Source of the DNA: Anaerobaca lacustris
GTDB taxonomy: Bacteria > Planctomycetota > Phycisphaerae > Sedimentisphaerales > Anaerobacaceae
Direction: 5' to 3'
DNA: 64,000 bases
Assembly (NCBI RefSeq): GCF_030012215.1
Contig: NZ_JASCXX010000009.1
Location: forward strand, 1-64,000
A program made the position numbers and the translations under genes. This document shows, piece after piece, positions 796 to 17,654 of this stretch (its first letter is position 1; every line of letters begins with the position of its first letter). The notes under the pieces are model-generated. The model was not told the origin of the DNA and ran no database searches. It was given only the letters and a program-made list of their open reading frames with translations.

Positions 796-969
796 ATGAT
801 CAAGAAAATATTCGAGGCGATTGAATCGTTTTGTAGGGCAGTCATCTACATGCTCGTACTCGTCATGGGCATGACTGTTGCCAGTATTGCGACCTATGCC
901 GTCCTGTTCTGCGCGTTTCGCTTGGCACAATTTCTCTGGCTGGCATTTTTTCGGGAGTCATGGTTATGA
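796..969 (+). CDS. 57-residue membrane protein
   Basis: ATG at 796 follows an AAGGG Shine-Dalgarno by about 8 bases and the frame stops at TGA 967-969. The protein has a short charged start (MIKKIFEAIESF) and then a long hydrophobic stretch from about residue 16 to 52, enough for one long or two short membrane helices. Its stop overlaps the next start as ATGA (966-969), which implies translational coupling and supports it being real despite its size. It appears to be the first gene of the operon. Function is unknown; single-pass helpers of membrane ATPases are one possibility. Confidence 0.6.
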   Translation: MIKKIFEAIESFCRAVIYMLVLVMGMTVASIATYAVLFCAFRLAQFLWLAFFRESWL

Positions 970-1586
970 GCCTGATCGATATCCTATTTCGGCGTTCGCC
1001 GAAGAACGCGGCAACTCCAAACGTCCAGCCCGCCCCGCCAGCTACGTCAGCGCAGTCCAGCGCCAGCGCACCCATCGAACCCCTGGAGCGGAATGTCGAG
1101 GTCCGTTCAATCCGGGGCCTACTGAACGATCTGCACCGCCTGGATGGCCGGTACCGCAGCGCCGAGGGCGAGCTGATCAGCCGCTGTGAGGCCGAGGAAG
1201 GCATTGTTTTGACCTGCGGCCATATCGGGACGGCGTTTCGTCCCAGTCCTGAAAAGGACCGTGCGGAAACATGGATTGCCGGCCTGTGCACCTACTGCGT
1301 CCGCGAATACCAGTCCCTCGTCGAGAAGGGCGAACTCGATGCGCTCCAGGCCGAGCGACTTTCACTCATCTGCAACGAGTGCGCCCGAATGACTACATCG
1401 GGCCACTTGTGTTGCCCCCGGCATTCCACGAAGGTGACTGCCGAGGACGGGAGCACAAAGTACATCGACCCCGACACGGCCAAGAGCGCATCGCGGCAAA
1501 GCACGATCGTCAAGGCCCTCAGCGTCCTCCAATATCTGTTCGGTGACCCACAAAACCCGCAGAAGCAAGGGACCAATCAGGAATAG
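966..1586 (+). CDS. multi-cysteine putative zinc-binding protein
   Basis: A 206-residue protein started at ATG 966, which overlaps the upstream stop and has GGGAG about 8 bases before it; ATG 960 is in frame but too close to that site. Residues 12-40 are a Pro/Ala/Ser-rich linker. Residues 74-153 hold Cys74, Cys84-x-His86, Cys108-x2-Cys111, Cys136-x2-Cys139, Cys149-Cys150 and His153. This pattern fits two zinc-binding knuckles such as zinc ribbons or treble clefs. The C-terminus is polar. No known family is recognised. The position directly before the HerA-like ATPase suggests a partner in DNA or protein handling, but that is inference. Confidence 0.7.
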   Translation: MSLIDILFRRSPKNAATPNVQPAPPATSAQSSASAPIEPLERNVEVRSIRGLLNDLHRLDGRYRSAEGELISRCEAEEGIVLTCGHIGTAFRPSPEKDRAETWIAGLCTYCVREYQSLVEKGELDALQAERLSLICNECARMTTSGHLCCPRHSTKVTAEDGSTKYIDPDTAKSASRQSTIVKALSVLQYLFGDPQNPQKQGTNQE

Positions 1587-1590
1587 ACTC

Positions 1591-3909
1591 ATGCTTGGAT
1601 ACATACACTTCATCTCGTCCGTTTGGTTGCTCCTGTTGCCGTCGGTGCTGACACCGGCCGAACCGGCTTGCCCGGGGCAGGCCGAGGCCGTGTACTCGCT
1701 GAATCGTTACGCATTCACAGATTGGGAGGAATTTGCCATGGGCAGAAACAAAGATCCATCGACTCGACGCTATCTCTTCGAGAAGCCGGCGCATCGATTC
1801 ACATCGCTGGAGCCAGATGAGCAACTCCTGGCCCTTGAGGCAGAACTGCGGCGTCGTGAGAAACTCCACGACCCATATGTCCAGTGGCTCATCGAAAAAG
1901 CGGCGATGTGCAGTGACACCAACCGGCAGTGGGCCCGTGACCAATTGCGCATGGTCATCGAGGCCGACCGCATCGAAGACATGCGCACCGGCGACGCCTT
2001 TCGCCCCCTGGCACCACCCCAACTCCTGGGCGACGGCGACCTGCATCTGCTCGATCAGGTGGATGGCGTGCCCTGGAAAGTCCCGTGGACAGCGCTGCCG
2101 CGTGGCCTGCTCGTTACCGGTCCCCAAGGCGCAGGCAAGACGCGGCTTATGATCTGGCTGTGCAAGCAGCTCAACGCCGCCAACCCCCCGATTCCGTGGT
2201 TTTTGGTCGATCCAAAGCTCGAATTCAAGAACTGGGCCAGCCATCTGGGCGCGATCTACATCGACGCCGAACGTCCCGACATCGGCATCGACCTGTCGCC
2301 CCCGCCGGGTCTGACGTACGAAACATGGCTTCCATCGCTCGTCCCACAGATCGGCGAGATTGTCGGCGTGATCTATGGCACCGAAATCCTCCAGCAAGCG
2401 GCCCAGATCTGCATCGAACTGCGGGATCGCTACATGAGCCAGTCGGGCCGCTCCACAGAGATATGCCTCCAGGATCTCAATGACGCGATCCCCCTGGTCA
2501 GGGGGGCATCGAGCTGGCGCCGCGGCGGGTACAGGGACGCTGTGCTCACTGGTCTGTCGCGCATCCTCTCCGGCGGCGGCAATCTCTTCAAATGTCGCCG
2601 AGGGATCGATCTCAACAGGCTCTTCGGACGCAATGTGGTCTTTGGCACGCGGTCGGTCACGGACGATTTCGCGACGAGGTTCTTGGCCCTATATCTGTTG
2701 TGGTATCTGCAGGAAGCCGAACGGCATGCAGCGCCGACCCAGCAGCCCAAGAGCGTCCTGATCATCGACGACGCCAGCCGTTACATCGGCGCCAGAGAGG
2801 GCTCCACCGGCAGAGCGCTGTCGAGCATCGGTTCGATTCTGACGACAATGCGATCCAGCGGCAGATGCTTCGTGGCCGTCAGCCAGATTCCGCACCTGAT
2901 CGATCCGGGCGTTTGCGCTCTGATGCACACGGTCGTAGATATCGGAGGCCTTCACCATGCCGCCGACACGCAATTGCTGGCGCGGATGATGGGCCTGACC
3001 GAACCGCAGCGTCAGGCCTTGACGTCGCTGGGTCAACGAGAGGCTGTGGGTCTTTGCGGTGGCTCGGCTTGGCCCCGGGCGGTTCATGGCCGCGTTCCGG
3101 AGGTCGCAGATCCTACGGGTGTGGGGACGGCTCAGGCAACGGACCTTCCCGAACTAGAAACCGAGCCCTACACGAATCTGCCGGACCTGGTCCAAACCCA
3201 TTGTACGCCTGAGGACTCCAGCCGGCCGGCCGGCGAGCCGCCGGCGACAGTGCCGGCGAGCCCGGCGACACCGGATCACGGCGAACCGTCGTCGGATCTG
3301 GCGGCAAATGAAAAGATGCTCGCTCTCGATATCGTGACGTCTCTGGCCTCGACATTGCGCCAGCGTCAGCAGCGCCTGGGCCTATCCGCCAGGCAACTCG
3401 AAGATCGCAAGCAGGCACTGGTCAACAAGGGGCTCATCGTAGAGGTGCCGCTTGGAAAAGCCTTGATGCTGGCGCCAACGCAGCAACTCTATCGGCTACT
3501 GGGCATCGAATGTCCCTACAAGCGCAACGCATGGGAAATGCATTCGTTCCTCGTGCTTCTCGCCGCCAAACTGATCGAATCCGATCCCCTGGTCAAATCC
3601 GTCAAGACCGAGGTCTCTCTGGGTGACGCGAACTCGACGGTGGACCTGATCGGTTATCTACACGACGGAGAGCGTCACGCATTCGAGGTTATCCATCGAA
3701 CGGTCACGAATATCGCTGCCACCGCCGCCAAACTCGAGGGCAAGGCCTTCTCACAGGTCCGGTTCTTGTGCTCCGACTTCAACATCAAAGAGCGCGTCTG
3801 GGCCACGCTTCGCAATGCCGGTTTTGGCGATGAGTTTTTGGCCACGATCCGCTGCGATCTCTTCGGGGCCTTGCTGCGGGCACACCAGGGCAGGAGGAAA
3901 AACGCATGA
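1591..3909 (+). CDS. HerA/FtsK-type ATPase with a possible nuclease-like C-terminal domain
   Basis: A 772-residue P-loop ATPase. The Walker A motif GPQGAGKT is near residue 177 and a Walker B motif VLIIDDA near 389-395, followed by a polar sensor-like stretch (VAVSQIPHLID). This order matches the HerA/FtsK/VirD4 translocase superfamily. The region from 680 (STVDLIGY, then AFEVIHRT) resembles the D...E-x-hydrophobic core of PD-(D/E)xK folds, but the lysine position is unclear. ATG 1591 has AGGA 8 bases upstream and adds a hydrophobic N-terminal segment (residues 5-20), as in membrane-anchored coupling proteins. ATG 1738 has a stronger GGAGG site and would give a soluble form. The product could pump DNA through or to a membrane; conjugative coupling is possible, but no relaxase is nearby. 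Confidence 0.75.
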   Translation: MLGYIHFISSVWLLLLPSVLTPAEPACPGQAEAVYSLNRYAFTDWEEFAMGRNKDPSTRRYLFEKPAHRFTSLEPDEQLLALEAELRRREKLHDPYVQWLIEKAAMCSDTNRQWARDQLRMVIEADRIEDMRTGDAFRPLAPPQLLGDGDLHLLDQVDGVPWKVPWTALPRGLLVTGPQGAGKTRLMIWLCKQLNAANPPIPWFLVDPKLEFKNWASHLGAIYIDAERPDIGIDLSPPPGLTYETWLPSLVPQIGEIVGVIYGTEILQQAAQICIELRDRYMSQSGRSTEICLQDLNDAIPLVRGASSWRRGGYRDAVLTGLSRILSGGGNLFKCRRGIDLNRLFGRNVVFGTRSVTDDFATRFLALYLLWYLQEAERHAAPTQQPKSVLIIDDASRYIGAREGSTGRALSSIGSILTTMRSSGRCFVAVSQIPHLIDPGVCALMHTVVDIGGLHHAADTQLLARMMGLTEPQRQALTSLGQREAVGLCGGSAWPRAVHGRVPEVADPTGVGTAQATDLPELETEPYTNLPDLVQTHCTPEDSSRPAGEPPATVPASPATPDHGEPSSDLAANEKMLALDIVTSLASTLRQRQQRLGLSARQLEDRKQALVNKGLIVEVPLGKALMLAPTQQLYRLLGIECPYKRNAWEMHSFLVLLAAKLIESDPLVKSVKTEVSLGDANSTVDLIGYLHDGERHAFEVIHRTVTNIAATAAKLEGKAFSQVRFLCSDFNIKERVWATLRNAGFGDEFLATIRCDLFGALLRAHQGRRKNA

Positions 3910-4133: not shown

Positions 4134-4832
4134 ATGAACGAAGAGCCACAACTGCAGCAAGACGATGACAACTCCGAAAGTACCTTCCCCAACGATAGCG
4201 AGAATCCAGGCAATCCTCCGGAAGATCACGTCGCCGATGAACCCGTCGTCGACCCTCAAGCCGATGACACTGCGGGTCTGCGAGGTCCGTCCGCATCGCA
4301 GGTCAGACGGCTCGACACACGCCTTCGCCGGTTGACGCGGGCATATCTGAACCAGACGAACCGATTGGAGTCGTATCTGCAGATCGTCACCGCGTGCCAG
4401 AAGCAGACCGCTGAGTTCGCCAACCATGTAATCGAGCGCCACGCGCTGCACCCGGCGGTCGAGGCCGTCGATCTCCTGACCGGTTTGATCGGCCAACTGA
4501 ACGACCAGGCCAACGATCTCCTCGATGCCGCAGCGCATTGCCCGATGTTTGATCCCTTATTCGGTTCGATCGCCGAGGCGACCAGGATGGCACACGCCAA
4601 GTGTGAGCATCTGGACATGCGGTCCATCTGTCCGGCGCCGCTCGACGAGCTCGACATTGACAAGCATGAGATCCGCCAGGCCGTCTGCACCGACGACCCC
4701 GACAAACACAGGAGAGTCGAACGCACCCTCATCTCCGGCCTGATCTATCGCGGCGCCGTGCTGCGACGGGCCAAGGTCTCCGTGTATCGCCACATCCCGC
4801 AAGAACCACAGAATCGAAAGGAAAACCCATGA
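4134..4832 (+). CDS. GrpE-like nucleotide exchange factor (divergent)
   Basis: A 232-residue protein with GAGG about 7 bases before the ATG. Residues 1-45 are strongly acidic, 53-155 are predicted to be long helices (RLDTRLRRLTRAYLNQTNRL), and 165-222 look like the small GrpE beta domain: DIDKHEIRQAV matches the F-D-P-x-x-H-E-A-V region, and GLIYRGAVLRRAKVSVYR matches the conserved GY-x-x-x-x-R-V-L-R-P-A-x-V-x-V end. The same domain order is known from bacterial GrpE. Its stop overlaps the start of the Hsp70 gene (ATGA at 4829), which strongly supports a cochaperone role: release of ADP from that Hsp70. The assignment rests on pattern and context, not a database hit. Confidence 0.65.
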   Translation: MNEEPQLQQDDDNSESTFPNDSENPGNPPEDHVADEPVVDPQADDTAGLRGPSASQVRRLDTRLRRLTRAYLNQTNRLESYLQIVTACQKQTAEFANHVIERHALHPAVEAVDLLTGLIGQLNDQANDLLDAAAHCPMFDPLFGSIAEATRMAHAKCEHLDMRSICPAPLDELDIDKHEIRQAVCTDDPDKHRRVERTLISGLIYRGAVLRRAKVSVYRHIPQEPQNRKENP

Positions 4833-6409
4833 AGACCAAAACAGACAGCATCCAATTCTACCTGGGCATCGACCTGGGCACCACGACGACGCAGATGGCC
4901 GTCCTCGATGAAACGGGCGCTGCGAAGGTCATCCCCAACGCCGACGGCGACCTGACCACACCGTCGATCGTCTCGGTCGCCGGCAAGAACCCCGTGGCCG
5001 GCCGGGCCGCCAGGCAGGACAAGTTCGTCGAACCCGAACGGGTGGCTGAACTCTTCAAGCGGTACCTGCACGTCGAGCCGCCGCCGGCGCTCGTAACCTC
5101 AGCGGACGGCACCCCGTTCAATCCTGTGATGCTCTCGGCCGAACTGCTGCACTATCAAAAGCACAGCGCCGAGCGAATCACAGGCCACACGTTCAAGAAG
5201 GCCGTCATCGGGGTCCCCGCCTACTTCGAGCAGCCGGCCCGCCTGGCCACCAAACAAGCCGGCCTCGTCGCCGGTTTCGAAGAGGTCCGCATTGTCGACG
5301 AACCGACGCTCGCCGCCGTCTTCTACGGCCTGGCCAAGGGCAAGGCCGCCAGGATCGCCGTCTTCGACTTCGGTGGCGGCACTTTCGATATCAGCATCAT
5401 GGACGCCAAAGAAGACGGTCAGATCGAACCGCTGGCCGTGGACGGCGACCCGGAGTGCGGCGGCAGCAATGTCGATGAAGCCATCTTCCAGCAGGCCAGG
5501 CAGTTCGTCTCGGGCAAAGGCGGCCAGTTGAGCCCGGAAAAGGACCTCGCCGAATGGCTCGAGGTCCTCGACCGGTGCCGACAGGCCAAAGAGACCCTCG
5601 CGCGCAGGGACACCGCCGTGATTCCCGTGCGGATCGGCGAGACGCGCACTTCGATGGAACTGACCTACGACCAGTTGAAGGAGCTTTGCCACGACATCAT
5701 CGAGAACCTGCGGCAGTGCTGCCAACGGGCCCTGGAAAAGGCGAAACTCCAGCCCTCACAAATCGACACCGTCCTGCTGGTCGGTGGCAGCACGCGCCTG
5801 CGCTTTGTCCCGGAGTTGGTCCGGGAGATTTTTGGCAAAGACCCGGTGACCGACGCCGACCCGGACATGACGGTAGCCAAGGGCGCCGCCATCGTCTCGG
5901 CAGCCTGTTTTGGCAAGCCCGATCAGACCATCCTCGTCGAGAACAGAAAATACCTGGCCTCGGCGGTCCGGCCCCAGATAACAATCGCGCCGCGAGACCT
6001 CTGTGTCGCCGTTGTCAGGAAAAAGAACAACGGAGACAGGGAGGAGTACAACGTTCCCATCATCCCGGCCGGGTCCCGACTGCCGTACGAGGCGAAGGAG
6101 CGATTCAGTCCGGTCGATGCCGCAACGAATGCCGTATACGTGAAACTCTACGCCGGTCACGCCGGCGAACGGTCCAGTAGCTGCACGCCGTTGCAGGAAG
6201 CCGAGGTCCAGGTCCAGCCCACCGATCAGGCGAACAACACCGACCGCATCGAGTTCGCCATCCACATGGACGCCGAAGGTCTCGTCGATCTCAATGTGCG
6301 CGACATGCTGCTGGATCGGCCTGTGCCGATCCGGTTCAAGCTCGATACCGGGCTCTCGGACAGTGATATCGAAGAGGCCCGAAAACAGCTTCGGGCTAGG
6401 CACAAATAG
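4829..6409 (+). CDS. lidless Hsp70 (DnaK-like) chaperone
   Basis: A 526-residue Hsp70, shorter than the 610-640 of ordinary DnaK. The nucleotide-binding domain is complete: phosphate-1 loop GIDLGTTTTQMAVL (about 12-25), phosphate-2 AVFDFGGGTFDIS (about 177-189) and adenosine loop VLLVGGSTRLRFVPEL (about 314-329). A beta substrate-binding domain follows (about 390-510), ending VDLNVRDMLL as in other Hsp70s, and the chain stops soon after, so the alpha-helical lid is absent. ATP-driven binding of peptides is expected, with faster or weaker substrate holding. It lies between a GrpE-like and a vWA gene in the mobile operon and is unlikely to be the housekeeping dnaK. Confidence 0.9.
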   Translation: MKTKTDSIQFYLGIDLGTTTTQMAVLDETGAAKVIPNADGDLTTPSIVSVAGKNPVAGRAARQDKFVEPERVAELFKRYLHVEPPPALVTSADGTPFNPVMLSAELLHYQKHSAERITGHTFKKAVIGVPAYFEQPARLATKQAGLVAGFEEVRIVDEPTLAAVFYGLAKGKAARIAVFDFGGGTFDISIMDAKEDGQIEPLAVDGDPECGGSNVDEAIFQQARQFVSGKGGQLSPEKDLAEWLEVLDRCRQAKETLARRDTAVIPVRIGETRTSMELTYDQLKELCHDIIENLRQCCQRALEKAKLQPSQIDTVLLVGGSTRLRFVPELVREIFGKDPVTDADPDMTVAKGAAIVSAACFGKPDQTILVENRKYLASAVRPQITIAPRDLCVAVVRKKNNGDREEYNVPIIPAGSRLPYEAKERFSPVDAATNAVYVKLYAGHAGERSSSCTPLQEAEVQVQPTDQANNTDRIEFAIHMDAEGLVDLNVRDMLLDRPVPIRFKLDTGLSDSDIEEARKQLRARHK

Positions 6410-6449
6410 CCCCGGCCGCCATGGCCACAAGATGGAAAAGGAGCAGATC

Positions 6450-7175
6450 ATGAACGAACTCTTGGAGTTGATCGACTCGGCAACGCGCGCAGGCGCCGAT
6501 CTTCTCAAGCGGCTGTCGGCCGGCGCGTTCAAGGCCAACACAGCCGTCAGTATGCGGCAGCCGCCTTCACCCTCGGTCACCGACGACAACGCACCACGGG
6601 ATACAGCGATAGTGATCGACGTATCCGGGAGCATGGGAGCCTGTGACTATCCGCCTTCGCGGCTCGATGGCGGAATCCAAGCGGGCATGACGTACGCCCA
6701 CGCCCGCGCCATGACGCATCCTGGCGACCGGATCGCGGTCATCTCGTTCAGTGATGAGGCCCAGGTCGTACTGCCGCTGACGCCTGTCACCAAGAGAAGG
6801 ACAATCCAAACGGCGCTTCGCAAGTTGACAATTGAAGGCGGCACGGATCTGGCCAAGGGGCTTGAGGCCGCGGCCCGGCTCTTTGAAGACGAAGGGTCAA
6901 CCGGCCGTCGAAGGCACGTCGTCATGCTCACCGATGGGCGGGGAGGCGAGCCGCTGAAGCAGGCCGCCAAACTCAAGAACAAGCTCGGCGCGGTAATCGA
7001 CGTCGTGGGCATCGGCGGAACGCCCGACGCGGTGAACGAAGCGCTGCTGCGCCAAGTCGCCACGACCGATCCCGGTGGCTTCTGCCATTACCGGTTCATC
7101 CGGGACCCCGAGACGCTGTCGAGCCACTACAAGCAGTTGGCCAAAGGCCTCGTCTGGAACGGACCTGCAGAATGA
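6450..7175 (+). CDS. von Willebrand factor A domain protein
   Basis: A 241-residue protein started at ATG 6450, which has AAAAGGAG 6 bases upstream; longer in-frame starts lie inside the Hsp70 gene. After an N-terminal helical part (1-45), a complete metal-ion-dependent adhesion site is visible: DVSGS at 57-61, Thr132 in GGTD and Asp162 in TDG. There is no signal peptide or membrane segment, so it should act in the cytoplasm as a metal-dependent protein-interaction module. vWA proteins are often paired with ATPases, here possibly the Hsp70 or the HerA-like protein. The 3' end contains an 18-base sequence repeated at 10837. Confidence 0.85.
   Translation: MNELLELIDSATRAGADLLKRLSAGAFKANTAVSMRQPPSPSVTDDNAPRDTAIVIDVSGSMGACDYPPSRLDGGIQAGMTYAHARAMTHPGDRIAVISFSDEAQVVLPLTPVTKRRTIQTALRKLTIEGGTDLAKGLEAAARLFEDEGSTGRRRHVVMLTDGRGGEPLKQAAKLKNKLGAVIDVVGIGGTPDAVNEALLRQVATTDPGGFCHYRFIRDPETLSSHYKQLAKGLVWNGPAE
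7155..7172 (+). repeat. 18-base direct repeat, copy 1
   Basis: TGGAACGGACCTGCAGAA at the end of the vWA gene recurs exactly at 10837-10854. The match continues, with one extra base, through GATGGAG and resumes at an ATGG. By chance an exact 18-mer would rarely repeat within 64 kb. Confidence 0.7.
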
Positions 7176-7189
7176 TGGAGGTCGCGACC

Positions 7190-7276
7190 ATGGCGCTATG
7201 CTCACAGACCATCAGTATAACCGTCCGGAGTCCGCCGATTCCGGTCACAGTGACGACCTTGTCGACGAGCATATGA
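7190..7276 (+). CDS. possible 28-residue peptide (uncertain)
   Basis: ATG 7190 has a strong GGAGG about 8 bases upstream and lies at the place equivalent to the ATG of the gene at 10870 within the repeated initiation region. The frame runs 28 codons (MALCSQTISITV...) and its TGA (7274-7276) overlaps an ATG at 7273 that is in frame with the membrane protein at 7288. It could be a coupling leader peptide or a decayed start. Composition gives little support. Confidence 0.25.
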   Translation: MALCSQTISITVRSPPIPVTVTTLSTSI

Positions 7277-7287
7277 AAGGGATAACG

Positions 7288-7590
7288 ATGGGCCTGCTCA
7301 CAAACCTGATCCTCGGCCTCGGTCATCTGCTGCTGGTGGCAGTGGACCTGCTGTTTGTCCTTCTGCTGGCCAGAATGCTCAGCTACCGATGGCACAGCCG
7401 CTGGCTGATGGCTGTCAACGCAGCGGGCAAGCCGTATCTCGATTGGCTTACCGGACGAATCGAGCGGACCTTGCGCCGTGTCGGTCAGAAAGCCCCCTCC
7501 GAAAGGATTGTGCTGTTTGTCGCGATGGTGGCGATCAGCCTCATGCGGCTTCTGTTCACCGGCTGGCTTGCTGGGAAGCGCTATCTATGA
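7288..7590 (+). CDS. two-helix membrane protein, YggT-like
   Basis: A 100-residue protein with two hydrophobic segments (about 8-27 and 76-93) around a basic, helical middle (residues 28-75). This layout and the Leu-rich first helix resemble the YggT family, but I am not sure of membership. ATG 7288 has GAAAGGGA 5 bases before it; in-frame ATGs at 7273 and 7198 would add a short acidic N-terminus. Its stop overlaps the next start (ATGA at 7587). Function is unknown; it would place a basic loop at the membrane near the chaperone proteins. Confidence 0.6.
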   Translation: MGLLTNLILGLGHLLLVAVDLLFVLLLARMLSYRWHSRWLMAVNAAGKPYLDWLTGRIERTLRRVGQKAPSERIVLFVAMVAISLMRLLFTGWLAGKRYL

Positions 7591-8180
7591 CCACCGGCCA
7601 AGCGTATCACATCCTGGGCCTCAGACCGGGCGCCGGCCGAATGGAAATCGAGCGGGCGTATATCGCCGCACTGGGGCGGCTGCAGCGGCAGTTGGTGCCC
7701 GGCACGCCATTGGCCGTTCGCCGGAAGGCGCAGGAGAAGATCACCGAACTGACGTGTGCGTACCAGCTTCTTAAGAGCGTCGCTGCCCCGACAGTCCAAC
7801 CGACGCCGCCGGTGTCCGTGCCCTCGGGCCCCACACCTTCACGCCCAGCCCACTCATGGGTCCTGCCGGCCGGTTTTGCTGTGGCCGCCCTCGTGCTCGT
7901 TGCCGTGGTGTTCGGCATGCGGTCTTCACCTGCCCCGCAAGAACCGAAGACGGCACGGCTTCGCGTCCTGTCGGTGCCCTGGTCCTATGTGACCGTGGAC
8001 GGCCAATCTCTGGGGCCCAGCGGTCAAGTCGAGGCGTTCATACTGACGCCGGGAGATCGCACAGTCGTGTTGCGCCAGGGCGAGCGAATCCTGTCACAAA
8101 CTGTTCATCTGGCAGAAGGCTCTGAGACCATCGTCAAGGCACAACTTGAGAAAGGGTACATCGATGTGGCACAAAAGTGA
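7587..8180 (+). CDS. membrane J-like protein with PEGA domain
   Basis: A 197-residue protein. Residues 1-64 resemble a J domain: QAYHILGLRPGAGRMEIERA for helices I-II and TELTCAYQLLKS for helix III. The HPD tripeptide between them, needed to stimulate Hsp70 ATP hydrolysis in canonical J proteins, is missing (the loop reads RQLVPGTPL). A Pro-rich linker (70-89), one membrane helix (91-110) and a PEGA-type beta repeat (124-168, VPWSYVTVDGQ) follow. The predicted topology has the J-like part in the cytoplasm and PEGA outside. With an Hsp70 and a GrpE-like gene in the same operon, it probably tethers or modulates that chaperone at the membrane. Confidence 0.65.
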   Translation: MTTGQAYHILGLRPGAGRMEIERAYIAALGRLQRQLVPGTPLAVRRKAQEKITELTCAYQLLKSVAAPTVQPTPPVSVPSGPTPSRPAHSWVLPAGFAVAALVLVAVVFGMRSSPAPQEPKTARLRVLSVPWSYVTVDGQSLGPSGQVEAFILTPGDRTVVLRQGERILSQTVHLAEGSETIVKAQLEKGYIDVAQK

Positions 8181-8820
8181 ATTCGATCACCACAGCGGCG
8201 TGGCAAATCGCAGTGCGAAGTCGCACTGGACGCAACGGCCTCGACGGCTGCTGTGTGGCCTCGTCGCTGTCGCAGCCTTGCCGTTCGCCGCAGGCTGCTC
8301 GCCGGAGTTATACGCTCTAAGTGCAATCGTCGTCCCGCTGGCGTACAGGCATATGAATCAAGGCGGGCCAGGAAGCAGACCCAATGCGGTGCAGATGCGT
8401 ACCGATCGGCCTCGCATCCACACACAGCCGGTTCATACAGGCATCCTGCATGCCGCACATGACACCCGACAGCCCCAAACTTCAAGCTCGTCGGCCCATC
8501 AAGAAAGGTCGCAGGGCCCACAGCCAACAACACCATCACTCGTCACACAGGGCGCTCTGGCCTACAGGGAGATGCGCTGGGAGGACGCGAAACGATTCCT
8601 CACCGAAGCGATCGTCGAAGGAACGTGTACAGACTCTGAATTGAGCACCGCACATGCCCTTCTGGGGGCCATTGAGTACCAGCAGGGCAATGCCCGGGCC
8701 GCCAGGACGCACTTCGTGGCGGCGTATCGATACGACAGGCAGATGCAGTTGTCACCAGATGTGTTTCCGCCGCACCTGGTGGACTTCTACAGAACGGTCA
8801 ACGGTGTCAAAGGTCCGTAG
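8164..8820 (+). CDS. lipoprotein with TPR-like repeats
   Basis: A 218-residue protein. ATG 8164 has GAAAGGG about 8 bases upstream and overlaps the end of the previous gene; TTG 8146 is a weaker alternative. A basic n-region and hydrophobic core lead to a lipobox FAAGC with Cys45 as the lipidation site. The middle is polar and low in complexity. Residues 130-210 contain helix pairs typical of tetratricopeptide repeats (ALAYREMRWEDAKRFLTEA, AHALLGAIEYQQGNARAART). It should sit in a membrane facing the periplasm, where it could bind the PEGA protein encoded just upstream. The partner is inferred. Confidence 0.7.
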   Translation: MWHKSEFDHHSGVANRSAKSHWTQRPRRLLCGLVAVAALPFAAGCSPELYALSAIVVPLAYRHMNQGGPGSRPNAVQMRTDRPRIHTQPVHTGILHAAHDTRQPQTSSSSAHQERSQGPQPTTPSLVTQGALAYREMRWEDAKRFLTEAIVEGTCTDSELSTAHALLGAIEYQQGNARAARTHFVAAYRYDRQMQLSPDVFPPHLVDFYRTVNGVKGP

Positions 8821-8833
8821 ACGAGGCTCTCCG

Positions 8834-9994
8834 ATGCATACCGCCAACGACAACGTTGCAGATGAAACAATCGAGACGGTGATCTGCATGCATCTCGACA
8901 TCCTGGGGCATGCGAATCACGGCGTCACGGAACTGCGCATCTTCGATCCGTTTGCCCAGGTGGCCTACGCCGATCGCGCAGACGCCGTTATCGGCCTGTG
9001 CCGCCAGATGGATGGCAAAGCCTCCGGCATCTACGTCGGGGTCCAGCCGCGTCCGGTCCATCTGTTCGATCTGGCGCCCAACCACTGGGTCCCGGCGCGT
9101 GGCGGCGCCGGCGGCAACTGCAGCCGCGATGAGGACGTCGAGTACATCACGGCCGCATTCTTCGATATCGATGTGACATCGCCGACGCGGCAAGAAGGCC
9201 ACCCCGCGTCCGATGACGAACTCGCAGCAACCCTTCGCGTCGCCCAACAGATGGCCGGACAAGACGGTCTGGCCGGACATTCGACCGTCTGTTGCAGCGG
9301 CAACGGCCACTATGTCCTGGCCCCGATCGCTGCCGTGCCCGTAGACGGCCCCGATGTCGCGCAAAAGTTCACCAGCCTGTGCCGGCAACTGGCCGCCGGC
9401 ATAGCAGGTCCACTGTCCGGCGTGCGAATCGACGCCGTCTACAACCCGAGCCGCGTGATGCGTGTGATAGGGACTGTGAACCGCAAGGGCAAGCCTCTGC
9501 CCAATCGGCCACATCGACGGGCTTGCTTCGTCACCGAGCCGGCGCAGGACAGGTCCATGACCCTGCACGAGATGGTCCGCAACACTGATGTTGCACAGAT
9601 TACCACAACCCCACGAGAGTTGCCGACAGGCCTGCGATGCAACCTGAGCAAGATCGAGGAGTGCGAATTCATCCAATGGTGTCGTCGCCGCCCCCAAGAG
9701 GTCAGCGAGCCGGCGTGGTTCGCCCTGATCAGCAACCTTGCATACCTTCAAGGCGGCATCGACCTCATACACGAGATCTCCGCACGGGACACCAACCGTT
9801 ACGACTACGCCGACACCGAACGCGTGATCGAACGCATGCTTCGCGAGGGCTATAAGCCCGTCCGGTGCGCGACGATCATGGGCCCCGACATGGTTCGGCC
9901 CGGACGAGGGGTCTTTCGGTGTTCTCAGGCAGCCCGGTGCCCGGTCAGGACACCGATGTATCTGGCTGCAAGCCATACGGTCTATACGAGATAG
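8834..9994 (+). CDS. archaeo-eukaryotic-type (AEP) primase
   Basis: A 386-residue protein with the three AEP motifs in order: AAFFDIDV with Asp111 and Asp113 (hDhD), SGNGHYVL at 155-162 (the s-x-H-like motif, GNGH form), and VRIDAVYNPSR with Asp200, followed by RVIGTVNRKGK. These are typical of primases or primase-polymerases of plasmids and phages. The C-terminal part has several cysteines (RCATIM, FRCSQAARCPV) that may form a zinc-binding unit. It should make primers for replication of the element. No helicase domain is fused. The gene lies 13 bases after the lipoprotein gene. Confidence 0.8.
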   Translation: MHTANDNVADETIETVICMHLDILGHANHGVTELRIFDPFAQVAYADRADAVIGLCRQMDGKASGIYVGVQPRPVHLFDLAPNHWVPARGGAGGNCSRDEDVEYITAAFFDIDVTSPTRQEGHPASDDELAATLRVAQQMAGQDGLAGHSTVCCSGNGHYVLAPIAAVPVDGPDVAQKFTSLCRQLAAGIAGPLSGVRIDAVYNPSRVMRVIGTVNRKGKPLPNRPHRRACFVTEPAQDRSMTLHEMVRNTDVAQITTTPRELPTGLRCNLSKIEECEFIQWCRRRPQEVSEPAWFALISNLAYLQGGIDLIHEISARDTNRYDYADTERVIERMLREGYKPVRCATIMGPDMVRPGRGVFRCSQAARCPVRTPMYLAASHTVYTR

Positions 9995-10006
9995 GAGGTA
10001 CATACC

Positions 10007-10336
10007 ATGCAAGACGAAATGCGAAACAAACCGGATAAGGCCTTCCGATGCGGGGCCGTCCAGGCGGCCATCTGGGCCAACCGACGCGTGGTCGACAATA
10101 CCATCGTCGAGGTCTATTCGATCAGGATCGACAAGTCCTACAAGGCCGGCGAGGAATGGAAGCGAACGACGTCGTTTGTCGCCGAGGACCTTCCCAAGGT
10201 CTCCGTCGTGGCCATGGCCTGCTACGAGCACTTGCGCCTGCGCTCCTCGGAAGATGGGCCCAGTCCCCCCGAGACTCTGTTCGAGACAGGACGTGTGCAC
10301 CCCAACGAGAAACCCAACAAACATGAGGAGATGTAG
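10007..10336 (+). CDS. small protein of unknown function, possible ssDNA binder
   Basis: A 109-residue protein with an excellent AGGAGG 9 bases upstream. The core (residues 13-80: FRCGAVQAAIWANRR, SYKAGEEW, SFVAEDLPKV) has alternating hydrophobic and basic/aromatic strands and then a helix. I recall similar small proteins from uncultured bacterial genomes but cannot name a family. The strand-rich basic core just after the primase gene would suit a replication accessory or single-stranded DNA-binding protein; this is inference only. Confidence 0.6.
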   Translation: MQDEMRNKPDKAFRCGAVQAAIWANRRVVDNTIVEVYSIRIDKSYKAGEEWKRTTSFVAEDLPKVSVVAMACYEHLRLRSSEDGPSPPETLFETGRVHPNEKPNKHEEM

Positions 10337-10339
10337 AAG

Positions 10340-10879
10340 ATGAACGCGATTGACTCTTCCAACTTGGCGCCGATGGTTGTGCTGTGCGCTGTGCCCATCT
10401 TTGTGATCCTCTTTGCGATCATCCTGAGGACGCTGCGGCAGATGCCCTTCTTCGATGGCAGCAACCCCGTCCCAATCGCTGTGTGCGTCACGCTGCTGTG
10501 CATCCTCGGTCTGCACCAGCTCGTCGTTCAGCCCGCCGGCACAGAGACAGCCCCGGCCGATGATGCGCGCCGGTCGCTGGACTTCTTGCTCTTGCCCTAC
10601 ACGGCGATGGCGCTGGCGATGCTCCTGGCGTTGTGCCTGTTGCTGCTGGACAAGGTGGTGAAATCTCGAGGGTATGCAAGACTTCGAACCGAGATCGTCA
10701 AGCGTAGAGAACGTCGGGGCGCACTGAGAGATTCGTCAAAGCGAGCGCCGCAGGATTGCATATCGCCCAGACCCTCGTGGTCCCACGACGAGGACCGAAG
10801 CGGCCCGGTCAAGCATTCAAAGCGTGCAAAGGAACTTGGAACGGACCTGCAGAAGATGGAGATTCGAAAATGGAAATGA
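10340..10879 (+). CDS. three-helix membrane protein, copy A
   Basis: A 179-residue protein with hydrophobic segments at about 10-30, 45-62 and 84-104, then a long basic cytoplasmic tail (108-179). Its layout (two helices, a polar extracytoplasmic loop, a third helix, a charged tail) is the same as in the next gene, and the helix-2/loop region is loosely similar, so the pair may be old duplicates. Its last 10 bases overlap the next gene. No family is recognised. Confidence 0.6.
   Translation: MNAIDSSNLAPMVVLCAVPIFVILFAIILRTLRQMPFFDGSNPVPIAVCVTLLCILGLHQLVVQPAGTETAPADDARRSLDFLLLPYTAMALAMLLALCLLLLDKVVKSRGYARLRTEIVKRRERRGALRDSSKRAPQDCISPRPSWSHDEDRSGPVKHSKRAKELGTDLQKMEIRKWK
10837..10854 (+). repeat. 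18-base direct repeat, copy 2
   Basis: Exact copy of 7155-7172, placed so that the following GATGGAG serves as the Shine-Dalgarno of the gene at 10870. In one frame it encodes WNGPAE, the same residues that end the vWA protein. This suggests a duplicated gene-end plus initiation segment. Confidence 0.7.
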
Positions 10880-11448
10880 TGCCGAGCACCCCACACGTAT
10901 TGCTGGCCATGTCAATGGCCGCGGCCCTGACCGTCGTGTTTGTGGCCACCTTGAAGATCCTGGCGCGTTCGTTTCATCGCGCCACAGCGGTCGTCTTGGC
11001 CCTGGGAGTGACGATCCTGGCCGTGGTCGGAACCGCCCAGATCATCTTTGCAGGGCCACAAGCCGACGAGTCCATACCGTCCTCGGTCGTCAGCGGCAAC
11101 GCGTTGATGCTCTGGCCCTTCCTGGCCTGGGCGATCGCGGCGCTCCTCGCCCAACTGCTGGCCGCCGCCGGCGCGACCGCACCACCGGAAGAACCAGAGC
11201 AAACCAGCCAGGGCGCTTTTGATTGCGCCGCAGACGTGCAACCCGATGCAAAGCCACAGGAGAATGCGACCAAAGAGGCCAAGCCGCGCGGACGGCCCAG
11301 GAAGGCGTCGCCCAACCTCTTTTCGCAGGGACGAACGGATGACTCCAAGAAGAAGACGAGTTTGCCCAAACCGTCACAGCCGGCCAGCCCGGAGCCGGTC
11401 GCAACGTACAGTGCCGACGGCGCGGCAGAGCCGACGAAACAGTCCTGA
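10870..11448 (+). CDS. three-helix membrane protein with AT-hook-like tail, copy B
   Basis: A 192-residue protein; ATG 10870 is preceded by GGAG. Hydrophobic segments lie at about 8-28, 38-58 and 76-98. The tail (100-192) is charged and low in complexity, and contains KPRGRPRKASP, an AT-hook-like Gly-Arg-Pro core that binds the minor groove of AT-rich DNA in other proteins. A membrane protein with a DNA-contacting tail could anchor the element's DNA, but no such role is shown. It overlaps the preceding, similarly built gene and ends 6 bases before the HTH gene. Confidence 0.6.
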   Translation: MEMMPSTPHVLLAMSMAAALTVVFVATLKILARSFHRATAVVLALGVTILAVVGTAQIIFAGPQADESIPSSVVSGNALMLWPFLAWAIAALLAQLLAAAGATAPPEEPEQTSQGAFDCAADVQPDAKPQENATKEAKPRGRPRKASPNLFSQGRTDDSKKKTSLPKPSQPASPEPVATYSADGAAEPTKQS

Positions 11449-11855: not shown

Positions 11856-13130
11856 CTACGATGCCGCCTCGTCCCCCGCCGTTCGGATGAGCCGCAACTT
11901 CGGTCCGACCGGCACCGGTTCCTTTTGATCGAGCTTCTCGAGTATCTGCTTCAGGATGACTTCGGTCTTGTCCGCCGTTGGAGACCTGCCGGGACTGAAC
12001 TCCACCACGTCGTGCATCTTCTCGGGCATGAGGGCGGCGTAATGTCGGCGGCAGATCTCCGGCGAATTGCCCATGAGCTCGGCGATCTTGTACAGCGATT
12101 CGCCCTTCTGGGCCAGGTGACTACCGAAGGTGTGCCGAAAGTCCAGGCACGACCAGCTCAGGCCGTGCGACCTGTTGATCTCCCGCAAACCCTGCGAGAA
12201 GTTGTCAGCGTCCCACCGCCGTCCCCGAGTAGAAGGAAAGAACCACGGCTCGGTGCGCTGCGGCAAGTAGGCCGCAAGAATCTCATGCAGCGCCCCGCTG
12301 ATCGGCACGACACGATTGCGTTTGGTCTTGGGCTGCCAGTGTTTTCCGTTGATGAGCTTGGCGCGAACGTAGATCAGCCGCTTGTCCAGATCGACGTCGT
12401 CGACAGTCAGCCACAGCCCTTCCTCCCGGCGAAGACCGGCGTAGATGAACGTCGCTACCATGGCTTTTAGGGTGGGCGAGTCGCGGAGGAAGACCAGTTG
12501 TTCGCAGATCTGCTCTTGCGTGAGCCAAGTGATAAGTGGAGCACTTTCCTGTGCTCTCCTCACACCCTCCACGGGATTGCGGTACCGGTGATCCGGACAA
12601 ACATACCCATGGTGTTCGATCGCATAGCTGAACATCCGGTGAAGAACCTCACGAATCCGATTCGCCGTCTTGGGAGCTATGTGGTCCTCAATGACGCGTT
12701 CACAGATGTACCCGCTAATGGTCTCTGGGGAAAGCTCCTCCAGGTGCCGTGCAGGTACAGCTCGGTCATATGCTCTTGGGGTCGACTGGGATACGGATGC
12801 TCCACCATCTCGGAACCTATGGTTCACTTTACTGCCCGGCTGCAAGGCAGGACAACGAGGTCCGAGGAACATGCGCAGATATGAGATATCGTTCTTGGCG
12901 CTCTTACGAGTCCGAGTCCGCCACAGAAACTCACAGAACGACTGCACAAAGTCGTCAACCGGCGTATTGGACGGCTTCCTCAGTTGACCGGTAACTTCAA
13001 GTGCTTCCAGGCGTTTCTTTTTTTCGAGTGCCACCCGTTCATGGGGGGTTCGCAGGGATCTCGAAACGGACTTCCCGCCGATCAAGTAATGAACCCACCA
13101 GATGCGTCCGCGTTTGTAGATGCTAGCCAT
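11856..13130 (-). CDS. tyrosine recombinase (phage-type integrase)
   Basis: A 424-residue integrase. ATG 13130 has AAAGGAG about 7 bases before it, better than the longer in-frame start at 13157. After an N-terminal arm-binding/SAM-like half, the catalytic domain has the first Arg in YAGLRREEGLWL, a Lys in the beta hairpin, box II as LDFRHTFGSHL and the nucleophile in RRHYAAL. The two histidine positions of box II/III read Leu and Asn (LDFR, MGNS) instead of His and His/Trp. I associate this variant with many planctomycete integrases and do not read it as decay. It lies 140 bases from the 3' end of tRNA-fMet, its likely target. Confidence 0.9.
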   Translation of the reverse strand: MASIYKRGRIWWVHYLIGGKSVSRSLRTPHERVALEKKKRLEALEVTGQLRKPSNTPVDDFVQSFCEFLWRTRTRKSAKNDISYLRMFLGPRCPALQPGSKVNHRFRDGGASVSQSTPRAYDRAVPARHLEELSPETISGYICERVIEDHIAPKTANRIREVLHRMFSYAIEHHGYVCPDHRYRNPVEGVRRAQESAPLITWLTQEQICEQLVFLRDSPTLKAMVATFIYAGLRREEGLWLTVDDVDLDKRLIYVRAKLINGKHWQPKTKRNRVVPISGALHEILAAYLPQRTEPWFFPSTRGRRWDADNFSQGLREINRSHGLSWSCLDFRHTFGSHLAQKGESLYKIAELMGNSPEICRRHYAALMPEKMHDVVEFSPGRSPTADKTEVILKQILEKLDQKEPVPVGPKLRLIRTAGDEAAS

Positions 13131-13221
13131 GGCAAGGCTCCTTTCGACCGTCGCCACAGCCCATTCCCGGGGTCACCCTGAAGCAGGAATTGCTACATTC
13201 CTGCTACAGTCCCCATTGCGC

Positions 13222-13269: not shown

Positions 13270-13343
13270 TAGCGGGGGGAGGATTCGAACCTCCGACCTC
13301 CGGGTTATGGGCCCGACGAGCTACCAGACTGCTCTACCCCGCG
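13270..13343 (-). tRNA. initiator tRNA-fMet (CAT)
   Basis: The cloverleaf reads from 13343 leftward: acceptor CGCGGGG, D-arm with GGTAGCTCG, anticodon loop CCCATAA with anticodon CAT on a stem ending in three G-C pairs, and T-arm GGAGG-TTCGAAT-CCTCC. The unpaired first position (C1 against T72) and the GGG/CCC anticodon stem identify it as the initiator and not an elongator tRNA-Met. CCA is not encoded. It follows the alpha-operon/HIT genes on the same strand and borders the integrase. Confidence 0.95.
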
Positions 13344-14528: not shown

Positions 14529-15530
14529 CTATTGCCCCCCGTCCTTCATCCCCAACGACAGACCGATGTCGGCGAGCTTTCGTTTGATCTCACGGAGCGA
14601 CGTCTTGCCGAAACTTCGGATCTTCAGCAGGTCCGCTTCGTTCATCGTCACCAACTCGCGCACGGTTTCGATCTTGGCCGATTCCAGGCAGTTGCTGGCC
14701 CGGACCGACAACTCCAACTCCTGAATGGGCGTGTTGAGCTTGGCTTCCAACTCTTCATCAATCGCCGCTTCCGGCTCTTCGGCCGCCAACTCCCCGGCGA
14801 CCGTCTCCTCGCCCACCTCGAAGTACTGGACGAAGGGATTGATGTGCTTGCGGAGGATCTTGGCGGCCTCGACGAGCGCCATTTCGGGCGACACCGTGCC
14901 GTTGGTCCAGATCTCCATGATGAGCCGGTCGTAGTTCGTCCGCTGGCCGACGCGCGTGTTCTCCGTCGTATAGCGAACGCGCGTCACCGGGGAATAGACC
15001 GCATCGAGGTGAATCAGCCCGATCTCCTGATCGAACCGGTCCGCATCGGCAATCCGCTCGGAGACGGGCACGTATCCGCGCCCGTTCTCGACGACCATTT
15101 CCATCTCGAAACGGATGTTGTCCGTCAGCGTGGCCAGCACCTTGTCCTTGCTGAACACCTCGATGGCCGGGTCGGCCACGATGTCCGCCGCCGTCACGAC
15201 GCCCACTTTGTCGGCCGAAACCTTCATCGTCTTCGGCCCGTCCCCCTGCAACCGGATGACCAGACTCTTGACGTTCAACACGATGTCGGTGGCATCCTCC
15301 ATCACGCCGGCGACGGAGGTGAACTCATGATCCACTCCACTGATCTTGACCGAGGTGACCGCACTACCTTCGAGCGACGAGAGCAACACGCGCCTCAGGC
15401 TGTTCCCGACGGTCGTACCGAAACCCCGCTCGAACGGCTCGATGAAGAACCGGCCGTAGGTATCCGTCGAGATAACGCTGTCCTTTTCAACACGAGTCGG
15501 CAATTCTAACCCACGCCATGTCACTCGCAT
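14529..15530 (-). CDS. rpoA: RNA polymerase alpha subunit
   Basis: A 333-residue alpha subunit. The N-terminal assembly domain (about 1-230) includes FERGFGTTVGNSLRRVLLSS, which drives dimer formation and beta/beta' binding. The C-terminal domain (about 255-320: ELSVRASNCLESAKIETVRE) is the helix-hairpin-helix unit that contacts UP elements and activators. Length is typical. It lies between rpsD and rplQ, the standard alpha-operon order. Confidence 0.98.
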   Translation of the reverse strand: MRVTWRGLELPTRVEKDSVISTDTYGRFFIEPFERGFGTTVGNSLRRVLLSSLEGSAVTSVKISGVDHEFTSVAGVMEDATDIVLNVKSLVIRLQGDGPKTMKVSADKVGVVTAADIVADPAIEVFSKDKVLATLTDNIRFEMEMVVENGRGYVPVSERIADADRFDQEIGLIHLDAVYSPVTRVRYTTENTRVGQRTNYDRLIMEIWTNGTVSPEMALVEAAKILRKHINPFVQYFEVGEETVAGELAAEEPEAAIDEELEAKLNTPIQELELSVRASNCLESAKIETVRELVTMNEADLLKIRSFGKTSLREIKRKLADIGLSLGMKDGGQ

Positions 15531-15634
15531 ATATAGGCCTCCGATCTAAACTTTCGTCCGTACACTGCACAGCACCATGCAGAACCGATTCCCGTTGTTC
15601 GGGCCACCCCATTCCGCATCTTCCGCCTCCGAGC

Positions 15635-16267
15635 CTATCGCGAACAGATTTCGACGACCAGTTGCTCTTCCACAGGGATCTGCACGTCTTCCCTGGTCGG
15701 CAGGGCCACAATGGTCGCCGCCGGTTTTTCGCGGTCCAACTGGAGCCACGCCTGGGTCGTAAAGTTCGGATTGCTCTCGAGTTGCTGTTTCACCTCTTTT
15801 CGGCTTCTCTCAGAGTCCTTCACCTCGATCCGATCCCCCACCTTGGTGGTATAATCGCTCACGTCCACCTTGCGACCGTTTACGTAGATGTGCCCGTGGG
15901 CAATCAGTTGTCGCGCTCCCTTGCGAGACGGCGCGAAATTCAGCTTGTACACCACGTTGTCCAACCGTCGTTCCAGCAGTTGGAGCAGGTTCTCCCCGGT
16001 GTTGCCCTTGAGGCGCTCGGCTTCATGGAAATACCGTATGAACTGCCGTTCATACAGACCATAGTACCTCTTGACCTTCTGTTTCTCACGAAGGCGCACC
16101 CCATATTCGCTCAAACGCGTCCGGCGCCACCCATGCATGCCCGGCGCCAGATTGCGCTGTCGGCGCTCGACCTGGCACTTGGCGGTTTCACACTTGAGGC
16201 CTTTGAGGAACAGCTTCATCCCCTCGCGGCGGCACTGTTTGCACGATGGACCGAGATAACGTCCCAT
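15635..16267 (-). CDS. rpsD: 30S ribosomal protein S4
   Basis: A 210-residue S4. It starts MGRYLGPSCKQCRREG, with a cysteine pair of the zinc-type N-terminus, and has the S4 RNA-binding domain at about 95-160 (RRLDNVVYKLNFAPSRKGAR, HGHIYVNGRKVD). S4 is a primary 16S rRNA binder that nucleates 30S assembly and often represses its own operon. It lies between rpsK and rpoA. Confidence 0.98.
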   Translation of the reverse strand: MGRYLGPSCKQCRREGMKLFLKGLKCETAKCQVERRQRNLAPGMHGWRRTRLSEYGVRLREKQKVKRYYGLYERQFIRYFHEAERLKGNTGENLLQLLERRLDNVVYKLNFAPSRKGARQLIAHGHIYVNGRKVDVSDYTTKVGDRIEVKDSERSRKEVKQQLESNPNFTTQAWLQLDREKPAATIVALPTREDVQIPVEEQLVVEICSR

Positions 16268-16305
16268 ATCAATCTATCTCCTGCAGAGTCTTCTGGAGCC
16301 CTTGC

Positions 16306-16686
16306 CTATACCCGTCTACGCTTCGGCGGCCGACACCCGTTATGCGGAAGCGGTGTCACATCTTCAATCGAAGCGATCCGAAGGCCGGCGCCCTGGAGCG
16401 CGGAAATCGCCGATTCGCGACCCGACCCCGGCCCCTTGACCTTGATCTCGACCTCGCGCACACCGTTTCGCATGGCGGTGCTCGCACATCGCTGCGCCGC
16501 CTGCTGCGCCGCAAAGGGCGTGCTTTTGCGCGACCCTTTGAACCCGACGCACCCGGCCGAACCGGTGCAGATCGTGTCGCCATCCATGTCCGTCACCGTG
16601 ATCAATGTGTTGTTGAACGTCGCCTTGATATGGATGATCGCTCGAACAACGTTCTTCCGAACTTTTCGTTTTCCGCTCTTTGCCAT
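16306..16686 (-). CDS. rpsK: 30S ribosomal protein S11
   Basis: A 126-residue S11 with a basic start, the core [20 protein letters not shown] and the conserved C-terminal [17 protein letters not shown]. It forms part of the 30S platform and helps shape the mRNA exit channel with S7 and S18. It lies in the standard order rpsM-rpsK-rpsD. Confidence 0.98.
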
Positions 16687-16747
16687 CTGGATCTCTTACC
16701 GATGAATTCTGCTCTTGCGTTCCCGGCCCCAACGACCCGTTCGGGCG

Positions 16748-17131
16748 TCAGCGTTTCTCTTTGACGCCCTTCTTGCCCGCCACGGTCTTGCGCGGCCCCT
16801 TGCGCGTCCTCGCGTTGCTCTGGGTGCACTGGCCTCGCACGGGCAGCCCCCGACGATGCCGAATTCCGCGATAGCACGCGATGTCGCGCAGGCGGGCGAT
16901 GTTCTGCGCCACCTGCCGGCGAAGCTGGCCCCCGATCACGTAGTTGCGGTCGATGATCTGGGTGATCCGGCTCAGCTCATCTTCGCTGAGCTTGTTCGCC
17001 TTGGTCATCTTCTCGATCCGGGCCTCCTTGAGGATCAGCTCGGACGTATGCCGGCCGATGCCGGGGATGTACATCAGAGACACCCAGATCGTCTTGTTGT
17101 CCGGAATATCGATACCCACTATACGCGGCAT
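16748..17131 (-). CDS. rpsM: 30S ribosomal protein S13
   Basis: A 127-residue S13: [15 protein letters not shown] start, the helix-hairpin-helix-like [17 protein letters not shown], and a basic C-terminal tail ([17 protein letters not shown]) that reaches the P-site tRNA. It sits in the head of the 30S subunit and bridges to L5. It directly follows rpmJ. Confidence 0.98.
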
Positions 17132-17200
17132 ATTGGCTCCCTTTTAGCACCCATCTGCAATCCAGCGGGCTGGTCCATCGTCCGTTGCTCCTGTGGCTTC

Positions 17201-17314
17201 TCAACCTTGACGCTGCTTGTGCCGGGGATTCGAGCAGATGACCCGAACGACCCCGCGACGACGGACGATCTTGCAATTCTCACAGATCCGTTTGACTGAG
17301 CTTCGTACCTTCAT
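17201..17314 (-). CDS. rpmJ: 50S ribosomal protein L36
   Basis: A 37-residue L36 between infA and rpsM, too short for many gene finders. It starts [15 protein letters not shown] and has the zinc ligands Cys11, Cys14, Cys27 and His32 of the C+ form, ending HKQRQG. It binds 23S rRNA near the base of the L7/L12 stalk. The place between infA and rpsM is the conserved one. Confidence 0.96.
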
Positions 17315-17377
17315 CTTCCATTCCACGCTTTCCGACGACTCTCATACCCTGCGGTCCGCCGACCGGCGGCCACACTC

Positions 17378-17593
17378 TCAGTGCCGCAGCACGATTCGCC
17401 CTCGATTGAGGTCGTACGGCGACATCTCCACGGTCACCATGTCCCCCGGCAGAATCCGAATGAAATTCATTCGCATCTTGCCCGAGACATGGGCCAGGAT
17501 CTTGTGACCGCCTTCCAACTCGACCCTGAACATCGCGTTAGGCAAAGCTTCGATCACCTTCGCTTGTAGCCGTATCGCGTCTTTTTTTGCCAT
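17378..17593 (-). CDS. infA: translation initiation factor IF-1
   Basis: A 71-residue single OB-fold protein ([39 protein letters not shown]). IF-1 occupies the A site of the 30S subunit during initiation. Length and both hallmark segments are normal. It lies between map and rpmJ, as in many spc/alpha clusters. Confidence 0.97.
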
Positions 17594-17654
17594 CGACCTC
17601 TCTACATTCGTCGGAGCACACGGCCCCGCACGCGTTTCCTCGCGCCGGGCGCCG

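Follow-up and report, generated by a model that had tools for sequence, protein, structure and literature searches.

Why would an integrated element carry its own Hsp70, placed between a DNA motor and an integrase? The question is raised by a window of 64,000 nucleotides (the window is the whole stretch analysed) from a draft genome of Anaerobaca lacustris, which starts at base 1 of a 187 kb contig. The first 13.3 kb are the integrase-side portion of an element, with an operon on the forward strand, a tyrosine integrase on the reverse strand and then a tRNA-Met gene; as read from the list of open reading frames (ORFs), host genes for a HIT-family protein, a ribosomal protein and the RNA polymerase alpha subunit lie to its right. 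The gene order is HerA-like ATPase, GrpE, lidless Hsp70, vWA protein, YggT-like protein, a J-like protein with a transmembrane (TM) helix and a beta domain, TPR lipoprotein, primase-like protein and integrase. A sequence-only reading of this DNA had taken four of these genes for a rebuilt Hsp70 chaperone system. The genes that it named are real and tightly coupled, and they do lie with the TPR lipoprotein in a single element-borne operon adjoining the HerA-like ATPase, but our comparison with other loci suggests that the chaperone is a molecular switch for the element and not a protein-folding machine.

The expectation that these genes occur together elsewhere is borne out, as the gene order recurs at dozens of loci in other genomes. 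The same operon was first found in two other families of Sedimentisphaerales. Within the order, a profile of the vWA protein matches 32 times, in 21 of 161 genomes; the five other genomes of the genus have none, and the wider class contains more members. We read 52 loci with one set of hidden Markov models (HMMs), and 44 of these, in genomes of Planctomycetota, have Hsp70 and vWA together. All locus counts are lower bounds, because several loci run off the contig or have diverged from the models; among the 44 there are also a few near-copies that share a genome. GrpE accompanies the pair at 36 loci, the HerA ATPase at 29 and a nuclease-like domain at 26; a YggT-like TM protein is found at 30, a TM2 protein at 22 and the J-like protein at 8, while a primase and an Xis-like helix-turn-helix (HTH) protein each occur at 7. 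The order is fixed: HerA, the nuclease-like gene where there is one, GrpE, Hsp70, vWA, TM, TM2, recombinase. A tyrosine or serine recombinase is present at 38 of the 44 loci, with a tRNA gene within 600 bp of it at 24, and these tRNAs vary (Met, Asp, Ser, Arg, Phe, Thr, Pro, Val, Glu). Two near-identical modules, L094 and L095, adjoin a tyrosine and a serine recombinase, respectively, at different tRNAs. The same models, applied to 13 chromosomal loci (stretches of 7-20 kb) with short or DnaK-like Hsp70s, returned no recombinase, no vWA and no HerA. The serine recombinases of L090 and L095 adjoin tRNA-Arg(CCT); integration into tRNA genes by serine enzymes has been termed rare (PMC3218068).

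One reason to doubt a folding machine is an exchange of parts. At five or more loci (L018, L106, L185, L186 and contig C42 of the same genome as the window) the slot between motor and vWA gene is filled not by GrpE-Hsp70 but by a TerY-P-like triad: a PP2C phosphatase, an FHA protein and a Ser/Thr kinase. PP2C and a Ser/Thr kinase-zinc ribbon protein were recognised in L106 and L018 and, by HMM, in L185, L186 and L204; the window operon has neither. At L106 the order runs Cys-rich protein, HerA ATPase, PP2C, FHA, Ser/Thr kinase-zinc ribbon-FHA, vWA, YggT-like TM, HTH, integrase, and its small membrane protein, in the same position as the YggT-like protein of the window, matches Pfam YGGT at 3e-4, below the curated cut-off. 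At L054 an Hsp70-vWA pair stands side by side with a kinase/FHA gene and a second vWA. The C42 element seems to have its vWA tail on contig C33, and thus one genome holds three kinds: a clade I Hsp70 element (the window), a clade II Hsp70 element (contig C21) and a kinase element (C42/C33). In the vWA tree, the vWAs of Hsp70 and kinase elements fall together, apart from background vWAs (support 94/80, with 8 outgroup sequences to separate them), and those linked to a kinase make up a single group (support 80/93). vWA-based regulatory modules usually pair with kinases and phosphatases, as in TerY-P, or with MoxR ATPases. Because a kinase/phosphatase pair takes the very same slot, GrpE-Hsp70 probably stands where a regulatory switch would, beside the vWA protein, with the HerA motor as the component to be regulated; here gene order is our guide.

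The proteins themselves agree with much of the sequence-only reading. The Hsp70 (4829..6409) has a nucleotide-binding domain and the beta part of the substrate-binding domain, and matches Pfam HSP70 at 3e-85. Its nucleotide-binding motifs had been noticed before, and the residues equivalent to DnaK K70, P143, E171, D194, T199 and D201 are indeed kept in 40 of 40 element Hsp70s. The alpha-helical lid is absent, as was also claimed, since these sequences extend at most 4 residues past host DnaK residue 520 and thus all end where the lid would start. The GrpE-like gene (4134..4832) is coupled to it by the ATGA at 4829-4832. Searched singly, this protein has no GrpE match; its syntenic orthologues exceed the curated Pfam GrpE cut-off (29.5, 40.1 and 34.6 bits against 25.8), the family profile matches the GrpE structure 3a6m in the PDB at 8.8e-5, and hhalign pairs it with host GrpE at 96.8%. 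Hence the assignment as a GrpE-like nucleotide-exchange factor holds. The element Hsp70s fall into two clades in the tree, both apart from host DnaK and from the chromosomal short Hsp70; the J-like protein accompanies clade I, to which the window protein belongs, and is missing from clade II. With branches as long as these, the tree would fit either one or two origins.

Several further observations concern Hsp70s of these and other genomes. Chromosomal lidless Hsp70s of about 515-520 aa are common in these planctomycetes (L013, L132-L143) and are often preceded by an ORF of 450-520 aa with a GrpE-like stretch. At L089 and L090 the Hsp70 genes are interrupted or truncated at the 5' end, and the vWA, J-like and TM genes are still open. 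Among viral contigs no direct relatives of the window Hsp70 or vWA protein were found, and phage records hold only DnaK-like Hsp70s at about 28-33% identity.

The vWA protein (6432..7175; VWA_2 8e-23) has an intact MIDAS, D-x-S-x-S/T/D, in agreement with the complete metal site noticed earlier; the motif is intact in 11 of 11 aligned members, and the C-terminus is of a conserved HYRFI type. The J-like protein (7587..8180) is another matter. A J fold had been proposed for it together with a PEGA domain, and the fold stands: the family pairs with host DnaJ at 96.4% (hhalign, E 1.2e-9; negative control 0.2%), and the predicted structure of residues 1-69 matches 6rzy with Z 8.7 (root-mean-square deviation 3.0 over 65 residues) and the HPD-less Tim16 with Z 8.6 (2.2 over 61), that is, about as well as true J domains. 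The Pfam DnaJ score is nevertheless under the cut-off (18.8 bits against 27.8), and the HPD motif is found in none of 8 members. For the C-terminal domain, PEGA is a fair description, since residues 119-197 are predicted to form a transthyretin-like beta-sandwich (AlgF, Z 10.0), although no match to Pfam PEGA was seen. A standard folding cycle is disfavoured by the lack of HPD and by how seldom the J-like protein occurs (8 of 44 loci, against 36 for GrpE); together with the exchange described above, this points to a regulatory switch. Two smaller products complete this part of the operon. The gene for the YggT-like small membrane protein (7288..7590) overlaps the J-like gene by 4 bp, and the TPR lipoprotein (8164..8820; lipobox AAGC; TPR_2 18.9 bits, below the cut-off) has a homologue at L012 (5994-6530, lipobox LAGC). 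In this L012 element only, a RuvB-like AAA protein with a RuvB C-terminal winged helix lies between the vWA and J-like genes (7846-8817).

What would such a switch regulate? The ATPase (1591..3909) combines a motor of the HerA/FtsK superfamily (residues about 130-510) with a winged helix and a degenerate PD-(D/E)XK-like C-domain. The motor sequence matches 8yho (1e-16) and HerA 4d2i (1e-11) in the PDB, and its predicted structure matches DptH (Z 30.0), HerA (28.5), VirB4 (27.5) and TrwB (25.0). The window motor has no match to PF01580 (FtsK/SpoIIIE) and is of the HerA/DUF87 type; the L106 ATPase passes PF01580 at 26.1 bits, less than its own DUF87 score. The C-domain is homologous to a stand-alone protein of clade II (96.2% by hhalign with independent sequence sets), in which the R-G-H...E...D...E-x-E...K positions are conserved; they are degenerate in the window clade. 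Replic_Relax (PF13814), tried as a name for this domain, gave no match over the cut-off. Against plasmids, the window ATPase has one weak match, in Exiguobacterium.

We tentatively propose, with a little less than even confidence, that tRNA-targeting integrative elements of one family in Planctomycetota have this operon as their conserved core, with an output resembling that of the actinomycete integrative and conjugative elements (AICEs). The HerA-type ATPase, with its winged helix and PD-(D/E)XK-like domain, would act on DNA, and the vWA protein would link this motor to the switch. In the window the switch would be Hsp70, with its own GrpE setting the ATP/ADP state, while in the sister elements kinase, phosphatase and FHA protein would play this part. 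The HPD-less J-like protein, the YggT-like protein and the lipoprotein may anchor the complex to the membrane or position it there. The likeliest output would be to activate, transfer or maintain the DNA of the element in a controlled way, as in the single-motor AICEs of actinobacteria. Somewhat more hesitantly, we suggest that this is an undescribed, non-actinobacterial class of integrative element in which a HerA motor is gated through a vWA adaptor by an exchangeable Hsp70-GrpE or kinase-phosphatase switch, the chaperone cycle signalling DNA transfer. If this is true, an Hsp70 nucleotide cycle could do the job of a phosphorylation cycle, and the shared slot between motor and vWA is a natural exchange experiment; a widespread planctomycete family with several kinds per genome would be the ground on which to test it.

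A number of points weigh against this proposal. Contact between HerA, vWA and Hsp70 is conjectural. The motor fold fits defence ATPases (DptH, the best match, and SIR2-HerA) no less well than VirB4 and TrwB, and a TraB-like membrane anchor had to be given up, as the hydrophobic N-terminus is not conserved among the ATPases. The primase is missing from most loci, and among the scanned ORFs no relaxase or type IV secretion system (T4SS) gene was recognised. Close relatives of the window integrase at tRNA-Met (L209, L211) lack the module; integrase and module are separable, and strict linkage between them is ruled out. The far end of the element and other far attachment sites were not located within reach, a copy on contig C36 of the same genome being the sole candidate. 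Finally, the vWA tree does not settle whether the kinase type is a branch inside the Hsp70 type, and the split between element and background vWAs depends on the 8 outgroup sequences.

Could the module instead defend the element? A system of anti-phage or inter-element exclusion on a compact integrative element, with switch and vWA as sensor or threshold, HerA and the nuclease-like domain as DNA effector and the small membrane proteins perhaps as killing effectors, is the alternative that we take most seriously; we give it roughly a third of our belief. The motor is structurally near DptH and SIR2-HerA/DUF4297-HerA, PADLOC mad8 matches reach 3e-17, relatives of the window integrase are also found on islands that lack the module, and the other cargo at these sites is defence-like. 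Moreover, TerY-P-like modules act as stand-alone defence (PMC11090510), HSP70 and GrpE occur in predicted conflict systems (PMC7159879), and the kinase-kinase-phosphatase module (KKP) of prophages serves both control and defence (PMC11341870). Against this reading, our module adjoins a recombinase at most loci, in fixed order, and does not sit in recombinase-free defence islands; the window clade has a degenerate nuclease-like domain, and primase and Xis-like genes co-occur with the module at some loci.

Replication offers a further possibility, which we find unlikely, namely that Hsp70 remodels an inhibitory complex and so frees the replication protein of the element. DnaK, DnaJ and GrpE act in such a way on lambda P-DnaB and P1 RepA. 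The Hsp70 has the complete set of ATPase residues, and a primase is encoded in the window element and six others; most loci nonetheless have none, the HPD-less J-like protein was not found at 36 of 44 loci, and a kinase/phosphatase pair substitutes for GrpE-Hsp70 in sister elements. It is highly improbable, in our opinion, that the module is ordinary extra chaperone cargo aiding the host under stress. The Hsp70, GrpE and J-like homologies are real and chromosomal GrpE-linked lidless Hsp70s are common in these genomes, but the proteins have neither lid nor HPD, are regularly coupled to vWA and usually to HerA, and the Hsp70s form two clades separate from DnaK and the chromosomal short forms. 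Least credible of all is that the element is a tailless virus in integrated form, with a packaging ATPase of HerA/FtsK type. The size, the integrase, the primase and a structural match of the motor to the packaging ATPase STIV B204 would fit, but the window ORFs include no capsid candidate and no relative was found in viral contigs.

Has such a system been described? The sequence-only reading knew of none, and in a limited literature search we also found no published description of HerA-GrpE-Hsp70-vWA elements or of the switch exchange. The claim needs tempering, for related systems exist and precedents for the components are known. The TerY-P triad of vWA, PP2C and Ser/Thr kinase-zinc ribbon also stands beside FtsK/HerA/VirB4-like ATPases in Type III-A CoCoNuTs (PMC11090510); as there, a MIDAS vWA stands here with an NTP-driven regulatory pair and an FtsK/HerA-superfamily ATPase, and the kinase-type elements carry a similar triad, but the window has GrpE-Hsp70 in place of kinase and phosphatase, no McrBC, and a recombinase at a tRNA. 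The GAP1-N2 conflict systems (PMC7159879) combine HSP70, GrpE and a DnaJ- or TPR-containing partner in a predicted non-housekeeping role; no GTPase family was found among the scanned window proteins, nor was FNIII recognised, and HerA motor, vWA and recombinase are present instead. With KKP (PMC11341870) our elements would share an element-borne switch, and the sister elements share kinase and phosphatase; the window differs in its GrpE-Hsp70, and vWA and HerA are present.

AICEs have the layout att-tra-rep-int-att (PMC3218068), and our elements resemble them in their tra-rep-int layout, a tyrosine or serine recombinase at a tRNA, a prim-pol in some cases, a single FtsK-superfamily motor and no recognised T4SS. 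The window itself has the recombinase at a tRNA 3' end and the prim-pol, and lacks the PF01580 translocase. Unlike in AICEs, the motor is HerA-type and not FtsK/SpoIIIE, the hydrophobic N-terminus of TraB is not conserved, switch and vWA lie in the operon, and the hosts are Planctomycetota, in which transfer of the elements is a prediction. SIR2-HerA/DUF4297-HerA and DptH/SspH-type systems have the motor fold in common with ours; the operon is without SIR2, DUF4297 or a Dnd/Ssp partner, and the neighbours of its motor are a Cys-rich protein and GrpE. Hsp70, GrpE and a membrane-tethered J-like protein also recall DnaK-DnaJ-GrpE and the mitochondrial PAM motor (Tim14/Tim16-Hsp70-Mge1). Of what defines the canonical set, the Hsp70 ATPase residues and GrpE are present and the alpha-helical lid and an HPD J domain are not, and vWA and a DNA motor are added.

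The remaining genes of the element can be described briefly. A single-TM protein of 57 aa (796..969) lies upstream of the operon, with a similar ORF at L011 7401-7688. The conserved order opens with a Cys-rich, zinc-binding-like protein (960..1586), which is 35% identical to L011 7679-8284 (BLASTP, E 3e-40) and has a CxxC-rich counterpart at the equivalent place in L012 (13776-14228). The archaeo-eukaryotic primase-like replication protein of RepB/prim-pol type (8834..9994) has a weak PHROG DNA polymerase/primase match (4e-4), visible primase-type motifs and a homologue in L100. Two TM2-type membrane proteins follow (10340..10879 and 10756..11448), the true start of the second being probably inside its ORF; all window genes given with coordinates so far are on the forward strand. 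On the reverse strand, the tyrosine integrase (11856..13157; Phage_integrase 3e-18) adjoins the 3' end of tRNA-Met (13270..13343, same strand), presumably the attachment site, and its relatives abut tRNA-Met in several further genomes.

The C36 copy, degenerate and 99 bp long, has a truncated 3' half of tRNA-Met. In this region (L111, 7480-8404 and rightwards) it is next to another integrase from the family of the window integrase, which is interrupted, and then come genes resembling type III restriction-modification and a SIR2/HerA-like pair; the region could be the opposite end of the window element or its tandem partner. Short contigs offered no circular or terminally redundant sequence that could be an excised form. 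The contig of L101 opens with what resembles a sequencing adapter, an assembly artefact. At L012, ORFs reading as CRISPR cas3 and cas5 (15480-18385) adjoin the element of genome G058. Lastly, window positions 10301-10970, in the TM2 genes, and positions 10189-10861 of L051 on contig C21 of the same genome are 91.6% identical as DNA over 675 bp, which suggests recombination between two otherwise different elements.

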